Part shown: positions 57,118-61,163 of the stretch, one piece after another
Layout of the letters: every line of letters begins with the position of its first letter
How positions within the stretch are numbered: position 1 is the stretch's first letter
The notes under the pieces: generated by a model
Told to the model about the DNA's origin: nothing
What the model saw: only the letters and a program-made list of their open reading frames with translations
The model's database searches: none
Position numbers and translations under genes: made by a program
Source of the DNA: Mangrovimonas xylaniphaga
GTDB taxonomy: Bacteria; Bacteroidota; Bacteroidia; Flavobacteriales; Flavobacteriaceae
Length of the DNA: 64,000 bases
Direction of reading: 5' to 3'
Assembly (NCBI RefSeq): GCF_001280435.1
Contig: NZ_LBIP01000018.1
Span: 496,001 to 560,000, forward strand

Positions 57118-57837
57118 CTATATCATTGGTACTTCAATAAATAAAATCTCAGAATTTTCATTGGCTGCTATTTCAAAAGTCTCTGTCTCCCAAATACCAA
57201 TGGCATCTCTAGTATTCAAAACTTGGTCTCCAATTTTAAGTTCCCCATGAATATTCATCACGTAAACTCCGTGGTTAGATGATTTTAATTGATACTCGAA
57301 ACTTTTTCCCTCATCTAGATCAATTCTTGACAAGACGGCATCCTGGTGGATTTTCAAACTTCCTTCAAAATCTTCATCAATAGAAGACACTAAAGTCTGT
57401 AATTTGTTTTTACGCTCGGAAGCATCAAATCCCTTTTGGTCGTAGCGAGGTGCTACATTCTGTTTGTTTGGAAACACCCAAATCTGGAACAAACTTAAAT
57501 GTTTTTCATCCGAACCATTAATCTCGGAATGCTGAACCCCAGTACCTGCCGACATCACCTGCACTTCCCCTGGCAATACAGATTGCCATTCGTTATGCAT
57601 CGAATCTCTATGTTTTAAAACACCTCCCAACGGAATGGTAATAATTTCCATATTATCATGTGGATGTGTCCCAAATCCCATTTTGGGGGCAATAACATCA
57701 TCGTTAAGTACCCTTAAAGCTCCAAAGTGGATCTTTTCTGGATTATAAAATCCTGCAAAACTGAAGGAGTGATTTGCCTGTAACCAACCATGGTTGGCAA
57801 AACCTCTACTATTTGCTTTATGAACTACTGTTTTCAT
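57118..57837 (-). CDS. Pirin family protein
   Basis: 239 residues, bicupin. The N-terminal cupin has metal ligands in FGTHPHDNMEIIT (two His and Glu, about 56-66) and SAGTGVQHSEIN (about 96-107). Bacterial pirins (YhhW type) can act as quercetin 2,3-dioxygenases or redox sensors. It is the last of three minus-strand genes: flavin reductase-like, MarR, pirin, with gaps of 15 and 68 bases; the set is likely controlled by the MarR protein. Confidence 0.92.
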   Translation of the reverse strand: MKTVVHKANSRGFANHGWLQANHSFSFAGFYNPEKIHFGALRVLNDDVIAPKMGFGTHPHDNMEIITIPLGGVLKHRDSMHNEWQSVLPGEVQVMSAGTGVQHSEINGSDEKHLSLFQIWVFPNKQNVAPRYDQKGFDASERKNKLQTLVSSIDEDFEGSLKIHQDAVLSRIDLDEGKSFEYQLKSSNHGVYVMNIHGELKIGDQVLNTRDAIGIWETETFEIAANENSEILFIEVPMI

Positions 57838-57905: not shown

Positions 57906-58343
57906 TTAACGCATTTTATCCAAAAGGTCACTCAATTGACCCGCTTCTTCTTCTGTAAGATTCTTTACCAATTGCACATCAAAATCATCTGCAATTGACT
58001 CTAAAAGCTCCAAACCTTGTTTGGTAATCTCTACAAATACCACCCTTCTGTCGCTCTCGCATGGAATACGTTCAATCAAACCCTTTGCGCATAATTTATC
58101 CATGAGTCTTGTGGCATTGGGTGCACGATCTATCATGCGTTCCTTAATGGTCTGAACCTTTAAAGAGGACTTTGCTCCTTTTAATATTCGCAATATGTTG
58201 TACTGCTGAGGAGAAATGCCAAAAGGCTTGAAAAAATTGTTTTGATGATTTGTTATCCAATTTGATGTATACATCACATTTATCAAAGCCTTTAATTTAT
58301 TGTTGGCAAAACTTGAATTGATGTCTTTTGAAATATCTCCCAT
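57906..58343 (-). CDS. MarR-family transcriptional regulator
   Basis: 145 residues. A winged helix-turn-helix core lies near residues 40-115: ISPQQYNILRILKGAK, LKVQTIKERMIDRAPNATRLMDKLCAKGLIERI, then the wing SDRRVVFVEITKQG. Family members sense aromatic acids, oxidants or quinones and repress nearby genes. The double operator over the promoter of the adjacent reductase gene is its probable target. Middle gene of the three-gene unit. Confidence 0.92.
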   Translation of the reverse strand: MGDISKDINSSFANNKLKALINVMYTSNWITNHQNNFFKPFGISPQQYNILRILKGAKSSLKVQTIKERMIDRAPNATRLMDKLCAKGLIERIPCESDRRVVFVEITKQGLELLESIADDFDVQLVKNLTEEEAGQLSDLLDKMR

Positions 58344-58358
58344 GACTGCAATAGTTTT

Positions 58359-58892
58359 CTATTTTAAAGCTTCCTTTAATTTGGCAACTTCAACCTTTAA
58401 TTGTTCATCTAAATCTTTATTTACTATACTTCCTTCGGAAAAATTATCATTGAAGGATGGTAAGGAAAATTTAGCAACAATATTCGCTCCATGCCTTGGA
58501 AACCTCTCGGAAGCCATACCTAAAACCGAAGCACCTCCTCTTCCTCCAGGCGAAGTAGCCATCAATAACATATGCTTCTCATTGAACACATTTCTATCAA
58601 TCCTGGACATCCAATCAAATAGATTCTTAAAGGCAGCCGTATAAGCGGCATTATGTTCAGCCAATGATATTACTAAACCATCCGCCGATTGCATTTTTTC
58701 CAAAAACAATTTTGCCTTATCAGGATATCCCTGTTCTTTTTCCAAGTCTACCCCAAATAGTGGTACTGTGAAATCATTCAGATCAAGCAATTCAGCTGTA
58801 ACATCTTCCATTTGCTCCAAAGTATACTTTACCAATTGTTTATTGATAGAAGTCTTACTATTACTGCCCGCAAAACCTACAATATGTTTCAT
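58359..58892 (-). CDS. NAD(P)H-dependent FMN reductase-type flavoprotein
   Basis: 177 residues from ATG 58892 (MKHIVGFAGSNSKTSIN), with the phosphate-binding loop of flavodoxin-like FMN reductases. A longer open frame back to 58946 would overlap the operators and promoter, so the shorter start is chosen. Further motifs: LISLAEHNAAYTAAFKNLFDW (about 73-94) and ATSPGGRGGASVLG. Probably reduces quinones or FMN; the partners are the MarR regulator and pirin. First gene of the unit. Confidence 0.88.
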   Translation of the reverse strand: MKHIVGFAGSNSKTSINKQLVKYTLEQMEDVTAELLDLNDFTVPLFGVDLEKEQGYPDKAKLFLEKMQSADGLVISLAEHNAAYTAAFKNLFDWMSRIDRNVFNEKHMLLMATSPGGRGGASVLGMASERFPRHGANIVAKFSLPSFNDNFSEGSIVNKDLDEQLKVEVAKLKEALK

Positions 58893-58903
58893 GATTTTGA
58901 AAT

Positions 58904-58954
58904 TAGTTTCCATGGCAAATATACGACAAAATAAATTATTTTCCAAGGAAACTA
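58904..58954 (-). promoter_or_regulatory. Promoter with twin inverted operator sites, likely MarR-bound
   Basis: The minus-strand promoter has TTG (58946-58944), 20 bases, then TATATTTG (58923-58916), a perfect Bacteroidota promoter. It is covered by two inverted copies of an 18-bp site, TAGTTTCCATGGCAAATA (58904-58921) and TAGTTTCCTTGGAAAATA read on the minus strand (58954-58937), 16 of 18 identical. Centres lie about 33 bases apart, three helical turns. One site spans the -7 and one the -33, so bound repressor would block RNA polymerase. Confidence 0.8.
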
Positions 58955-59052
58955 TTTACATGTAATTTAATATTTCTTATTTATTCTAATCAAAATTTAT
59001 ACTTTCAGCAAAAAACTTATTTTTTTACTTTAGCGAAAATTAAAATTCAGCT

Positions 59053-60740: not shown

Positions 60741-61163
60741 ATGGGTACCATAAAAACATTGAACAAATGGGCCAATGCACATACCTATTATCCACTGGAT
60801 TTATTACGTATTGTGCTGGGAGTCTTTTTGTTTACAAAGGGCATTAGTTTTATGGCCAATAGCCAAATTTTAATGGACCTCTTCTCTCCTATCCAAAATA
60901 TGGCCGGGGGGATGATAACGGTTCATTATGTTGCACCTGCCCATTTTATCGGCGGTGCTTTAATAGCTTTTGGTCTCCTTACCAGATGGGCCATTATCGC
61001 TCAGCTTCCAATATTAATTGGGGCCATTCTGATTAATTTTGTAGGAGAAATGAATACCACCAATTTGGTGGTGGCCACTATTACACTTTTGGTGTGCATT
61101 TTCTTCTTGTTCTATGGATCAGGAAAACATTCTGCAGATTATTATTTTAAAATGCAGCAATGA
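60741..61163 (+). CDS. DoxX-family membrane protein
   Basis: 140 residues with four membrane helices (about 18-36, 58-80, 85-103, 107-125). The LLRIVLGVFLFTKGISF and GGALIAFGLLTRWAIIAQ segments are typical of DoxX proteins. Roles in the family vary (thiosulfate:quinone oxidoreductase subunits, redox membrane proteins). Alone between the carboxylase and a terminator. Confidence 0.85.
   Translation: MGTIKTLNKWANAHTYYPLDLLRIVLGVFLFTKGISFMANSQILMDLFSPIQNMAGGMITVHYVAPAHFIGGALIAFGLLTRWAIIAQLPILIGAILINFVGEMNTTNLVVATITLLVCIFFLFYGSGKHSADYYFKMQQ

Follow-up and report, generated by a model that had tools for sequence, protein, structure and literature searches.

A conserved MarR-linked palindrome at a flavin reductase-MarR-pirin promoter of Flavobacteriaceae, very probably the operator of the operon's own repressor

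Gene content of the locus

The window analysed in this study (the whole 64-kb stretch of Mangrovimonas xylaniphaga DNA) carries on its minus strand, in this order, genes encoding a flavin reductase (58359..58892, 177 aa; Pfam FMN_red PF03358, E 2.4e-33), a MarR-family regulator (57906..58343, 145 aa; Pfam MarR PF01047, E 6.5e-11) and a pirin, i.e. a quercetinase-type cupin (57118..57837, 239 aa; Pirin PF02678, E 5.7e-29 and Pirin_C_2 PF17954, E 3.9e-25). The start of the reductase gene is the ATG at 58892, since homologues align from MKHIVGF; the list of open reading frames opens it at a TTG further upstream. The nearest named relative of the MarR protein comes from Mangrovimonas (95%), followed by proteins of other Flavobacteriaceae. 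This product of the second gene is the proposed repressor, and autorepressor, of the operon.

The divergent plus strand encodes a carboxylase with a carboxyltransferase domain and, beyond it, a DoxX-family protein (60741-61163); in many relatives, unlike in the window, a DoxX_2-type gene itself heads the MarR operon. Downstream of the pirin gene lies one whose product is a small membrane protein (CAL67264 family, NF040514; 56827-57009, minus strand), followed in many relatives by that of a 563-aa ATPase, which resembles ABC-F proteins. Across relatives, the gene content of the locus (as identified from representatives) includes flavin reductase, pirin, DoxX_2, OsmC, glutaredoxin-like, Fer4_19/CDGSH and GNAT proteins, and points to redox or electrophile stress.

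Promoter and candidate operators in the window

Two 18-bp putative operators precede the reductase gene. The main one, site B (TAGTTTCCTTGGAAAATA, 58937..58954, minus strand), is the local form of the family operator TATWTTCCWWGGAAWATA and spans the -33 region (about -26 to -43). The second one, site A (TAGTTTCCATGGCAAATA, 58904..58921, plus strand), covers most of the -7 box together with the predicted start (about -10 to +8). A sequence check agreed with the preliminary description of this DNA in that the two sites are 16/18 identical, lie on opposed strands with centres 33 bp apart and cover both promoter elements, site B taking in the TTG of the -33 element. The same description had called the promoter perfect, which is slightly generous: the -7 box (TATATTTG, 58916..58923, minus strand) is indeed a perfect TAnnTTTG, but the -33 element, assigned from a reading of the sequence to the TTG (58944..58946, minus strand) within the CCTTGG core of site B, reads TTGG rather than TTTG. 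The spacing between this TTG and the -7 box is 20 nt. According to the mapped transcriptome of Flavobacterium psychrophilum, the TAnnTTTG box is located at -12 to -5 (PMC9723704), and the same placement predicts a start near 58911 in the window; an ATG inside site A would then sit just before the predicted transcription start.

A third, weaker operator-like palindrome (TAAATTACATGTAAATAG, 58952..58969, minus strand; 12/18 by hand count) lies immediately upstream, overlapping site B by 3 bp, with its centre 15 bp upstream of the site B centre.

Since sites A and B are each nearly palindromic, an unprompted repeat search recovered the pair both as a 24-nt inverted repeat (83%) and as a 23-nt direct repeat (83%). 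The earlier consensus, at up to 3 mismatches, gave five matches in the 64 kb as compared with a mean of 0.47 expected (the maximum of 100 shuffles being 3), four of the five being sites A and B read on both strands; as this comparison is post hoc, the cross-species tests described below weigh more.

Conservation of the main palindrome across orthologous loci

The set of loci used for comparison (n=81) consisted of the window copy and the best 80 of 226 confirmed MarR loci in public genomes, all of these at least 67% identical. When scanned within 2.7 kb upstream of marR with a threshold of at least 15/18, the palindrome TATWTTCCWWGGAAWATA was found in 79 of the 81 loci, which are related and counted here without phylogenetic correction. 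The first operon gene extends past the retrieved sequence in both remaining loci (L055 and L100). The motif first recognised in the window is therefore also present before the homologous genes of relatives. Automatic operon calls place the operon head at marR in several loci with long gaps, and the count of 79 is independent of such calls. The two C never vary among the 79 aligned sites, the two G are present in 79 and 78 of them, and the flanks are AT-rich, the core being TTCCWWGGAA. A TAnnTTTG-like box follows the main palindrome after 13 or 14 bp in 75/79 loci (hand count), after 15 bp in L048 and L106 and after 12 bp in L122, with no box in L059 by the pattern used. The conserved palindrome thus overlaps promoter elements of the very operon that encodes the regulator. 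The density of sites in the public loci (126 in 496 kb, or 0.25/kb; L056 was left out at the ORF step, so that 79 of the 80 were covered) compares with 0.026/kb in first-order Markov shuffles.

These data bear on whether the repeats are protein sites at all. Either site could fold into a short hairpin, and the region is AT-rich, so that a leader RNA hairpin or chance AT-rich palindromes might be considered; we give this explanation next to no credence, as the palindrome recurs in nearly every locus with CC and GG almost invariant inside the AT-rich flanks. In addition, site B and the palindrome upstream of it precede the predicted start and hence should not be in the transcript, which argues against a hairpin. 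A chance origin of the palindrome is rejected on the strength of its conservation and its co-occurrence with MarR (see below).

Regulation of the divergent carboxylase was also considered as a cause of the conservation and is unlikely, because an upstream palindrome stays in 11 loci that have no carboxylase in the retrieved DNA. It is found in all 11 of the carboxylase-less loci with a visible operon head or an internal site (L092 having the internal one only). The sites may nonetheless have a side effect on the carboxylase where it is present.

On the protein side, the stretch PNxTRLMDKL of the recognition helix shows at least 95% conservation among the 81 orthologues, as does the CC..GG core of the operator. 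A comparison of variants at operator position 5/12 with the residues of MarR pointed to no column in the recognition helix, so that co-variation lends no support.

Co-occurrence of the site with MarR and size of the regulon

The site precedes whichever gene opens the operon, be it the reductase or another. In operons headed by a DoxX_2-type gene (a type assigned to a cluster of 22 from one representative), the site typically ends 43-46 bp before the head gene (39 in L101), and no site scoring at least 13 was found within 300 bp before the reductase. In two loci with no reductase in the retrieved DNA (L105 and L119), the site lies 90 bp upstream of marR. Within the gene cluster of L078, L080, L090 and L092 there is one more site, about 300-360 bp upstream of marR; it accompanies the head site in the first three, the head of L092 being outside the retrieved sequence. 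Thirty reductase loci were retrieved of the 48 reductase matches in 60 genomes, including 12 without an orthologous MarR. None of these 12 has a site of at least 15 within 1.5 kb upstream; one (L175) has a site of 15 at +536, and in three (L170, L174 and L177) a distant MarR adjoins.

The same association is seen at the genome level. Among 60 relatives, an exact TAKWTTCCWWGGAAWMTA occurs in 14 genomes, all of them among the 18 that carry an orthologous MarR (at least 57% identity) and all at its locus; it occurs in none of the 42 genomes without one (hand count). In a second set of 149 family genomes (36 of them shared with the first set; MarR cut-off E 1e-40), the exact site is present in 46 and this MarR in 62, with 45 of the 46 carrying both (Fisher p 9e-23), and the reversed-pattern control matched only one of the 149. 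Of the 57 exact sites, 55 lie within 1.5 kb of this marR (43 upstream, 12 just downstream); the exact pattern was picked after some loci had been seen, which may flatter its sensitivity but not its restriction to the MarR locus. The two exceptions are a site in G104 (C1:1842124), where this MarR is absent, and a second exact site in G155 (C1:1297392), 1.25 Mb away; these are possibly second targets, relics or chance matches. No exact match was found in 17 of the 62 MarR-positive genomes. Their sites were read in the four that also belong to the 60-genome set, which have one-mismatch sites at the locus (G015 and G031) or diverged TACC..GGTA sites (G004 and G027).

Sites away from the locus were no commoner than expected. 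A scan of the window genome for the 18-bp site, as the preliminary description had proposed, did return sites (15 at up to 3 mismatches) but no excess over the reversed control (19), and the best match outside the operon promoter (L002) lies within a coding frame; together these observations favour a regulon of one operon. Likewise, at up to 1 mismatch in the 60 genomes, 31 off-locus sites (57 minus 26 at the locus, the latter counted by hand) compare with 37 for the reversed control.

In principle, the palindrome could be bound by another regulator encoded elsewhere, the linked MarR merely belonging to the controlled operon. The MarR Pfam model matches 8 times in the window genome, 7 times over the cut-off, and the G104 site exists without this MarR. 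On the other hand, a global regulator, or one not linked to the operon, should have sites in other places as well; the near-restriction of exact sites to the vicinity of this marR, and to genomes carrying it, therefore counts against such a regulator, as does the lack of an off-locus excess, and we consider this alternative highly unlikely. Since the site goes with the MarR operon rather than with the reductase, the strongest candidate for the binder is the encoded MarR, as had been suggested for the window copy and is now supported by both the comparative loci and the 149 genomes.

Secondary sites

The preliminary description had also proposed a dual-site repressor. The twin sites are present in the window, but only 7 of the 79 loci, the window copy being one, have a second site with a CCATGG core; the 33-bp pairing is restricted to a few lineages, so that "dual-site" is not a general rule. 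Nine of the 79 loci, again counting the window copy, have a site A-like sequence scoring at least 13 at +33, and L046 has one at +32, the CCATGG core being intact in 7 of these 10; L046 has lost one base of the -7 box and kept the site A core. Two loci beyond the 79-locus count (L025 and L030) also have a site A-like sequence. As judged from the aligned loci, the conserved member of the pair is site B, at -33, and site A, at -7, is lineage-specific.

By the same comparison, site B has its widely conserved partner in the overlapping palindrome 15 bp upstream, which is absent from the preliminary description. Its consensus is TATATTACATGGAAATAT, and 74 of the 79 loci have both the C and the G of its CATG core (information content 2.33 and 2.17 bits). 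The mean score at this offset is 12.14/18, as compared with 10.24 and 9.86 at offsets -14 and -16, and 32/79 loci score at least 13; three of the 18 bases are common to site B, an overlap that raises the score without affecting the core.

Some activators bind in the region of about -26 to -58, where the main site and the upstream one are located, and the MarR protein might accordingly bind and activate, or both activate and repress. MarR activators are a minority, however, and both the inclusion of the -33 element in the main palindrome and the presence, in some lineages, of a site over the -7 box and the start favour occlusion. We see only a very slim chance for activation and prefer repression.

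In 33 of the 81 loci (e.g. L076, 3454-3471), a further palindrome, often TAGTTTCCATGGAAACTA, follows closely on the marR stop, about 450-506 bases after the marR start (loci L046-L125). It occurs in 27 of 36 loci where the next gene encodes a ~290-aa (pirin-like) protein versus 2 of 35 with a ~240-aa pirin, these classes being set by length only. By eye, no clear TAnnTTTG box follows it. It is possibly an internal operator, a roadblock or an RNA hairpin. In the window, no residual internal operator was found after marR.

A broader reading of these arrangements would take the two overlapping palindromes, 15 bp (~1.5 turns) apart, as the conserved unit, bound by two dimers on opposite faces of the DNA, with optional sites over the start (window lineage) or after the marR stop (other lineages), the latter setting expression of the pirin-like gene apart from that of the repressor. 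We regard this reading as rather doubtful; if true, such a modular design with several operators would be unusual for a small MarR that controls a single operon.

Distantly related MarR loci

Twelve loci with a distant MarR (L034-L045; same taxonomic order, 38-47% identical) provide an outer comparison. They are similar to the main group in having palindromes near the -7 box in several cases, and in L034, L040 and L043 they adjoin pirin-like or reductase genes. They differ in that the palindromes are other ones (TTTTACATGTAAAA in L034), and in that the recognition helix is different in the eight distant proteins that were aligned (P replaced by S, and M by V or I). The main site is missing upstream of marR in 11 of the 12, the exception being L034, where a site matches the main consensus at 16/18 with a different core.

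In L034 we observed a perfect 20-bp palindrome, TTATTTTACATGTAAAATAA, at the promoter, about 20-40 bases before marR and with a pirin-like gene adjoining; it is a possible intermediate between operator types. In L039, L043 and L045, palindromes of the TGTAnnTACA type lie at the TTTG of a promoter-like box upstream of marR, and in these three of 12 loci the type beats shuffles (p below 0.02). Perhaps they represent the operator of a sister MarR group. One uniform alternative palindrome for all distant MarRs was rejected, the TGTA..TACA form being clear in only 3 of 12.

Relation to known MarR systems

The regulator is assigned to the MarR family by profile (PF01047, 42.4 bits over a cut-off of 24.6), and its AlphaFold2 model (pLDDT 88.3) matches MarR structures at Z scores up to 15.7. 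All NCBIfam equivalogs stay below their cut-offs (the best being HpaR with 52.1 of 121.2 bits and MarR with 49.1 of 240), and there is no MhqR model among the NCBIfam hits, a library that may contain none. E. coli MarR, likewise a small regulator of the winged-helix type, is 26% identical in the fold alignment (which includes the C80S-operator complex 5h3r) and autorepresses through two operator sites. The present case is distinguished from it by a single local operon, a Bacteroidetes-type promoter and a different operator. Obligate cysteine-switch MarRs of the OhrR/QsrR kind have an invariant sensing cysteine. In the present family C85, presumably near but not at the position of C80 of E. coli MarR, is found in 70 of 81 orthologues and C95 in 67 of 81; as neither cysteine is invariant, a thiol switch would not be obligatory.

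Judged by analogy, the best functional counterpart would be MhqR of Staphylococcus aureus, described (together with its Bacillus subtilis counterpart) as a quinone-sensing MarR repressor of mhqRED with an 18-bp 9-9 palindromic operator, TATCTCGAA-ATCGAAATA (PMC12893000). Repression of the own operon (putative here), an 18-bp palindrome with TAT..ATA ends and the fold (Z 14.8) are features in common, although many other MarR structures match the model comparably well. In contrast, the reported MhqR operator core is TCTCGAA-ATCGAAA (PMC12893000) and that of the present family TTCCWWGGAA, the identity in the structural alignment is only 18%, and the operon genes here are those of flavin reductase, pirin and DoxX_2. 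The urate-responsive regulators PecS, MftR and HucR are among the highest fold matches (Z 14.9-15.7), the HucR structure being listed with urate and PecS being called uric-acid-sensing (PMC12893000); however, their Z scores are tied or nearly tied with those of many other MarR structures, and nothing at this locus points to urate.

Proposed mechanism and implications

Taken at the level of sequence, the conserved palindrome is very probably the binding site by which the operon's own MarR switches the operon off. Our preferred model, in which we have good confidence, is that the sites are operators of the second-gene MarR, acting by dimer occlusion with autorepression and relief by an electrophile; we infer binding itself, repression by occlusion, the joint use of several sites and a quinone-type ligand. 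A MarR dimer would bind the 18-bp palindrome over the -33 region. Additional dimers could be accommodated 33 bp away, at the -7 box and start (this genus and a few other lineages), and 15 bp away, at the overlapping upstream palindrome (many lineages). Bound MarR would block RNA polymerase, so that the reductase, marR and pirin genes would be kept low and MarR would limit its own level. An electrophile would free MarR from the DNA, and the flavin reductase and pirin would help to detoxify it. Gene content makes a quinone or related aromatic the most likely electrophile, a tentative choice that we hold at slightly less than even confidence.

A search of the open-access literature found no study of this MarR subfamily, and its matches to the 12-base operator core were unrelated by title. 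By computation, the present analysis assigns an operator, a regulon and the layout of the promoter to this subfamily, which 62 of the 149 sampled family genomes carry. The sites are a clean instance of a well-known type of gene switch in bacteria, common to many related marine species, and the lineage-by-lineage gain of extra sites round one conserved core makes them a tractable case of operator evolution.
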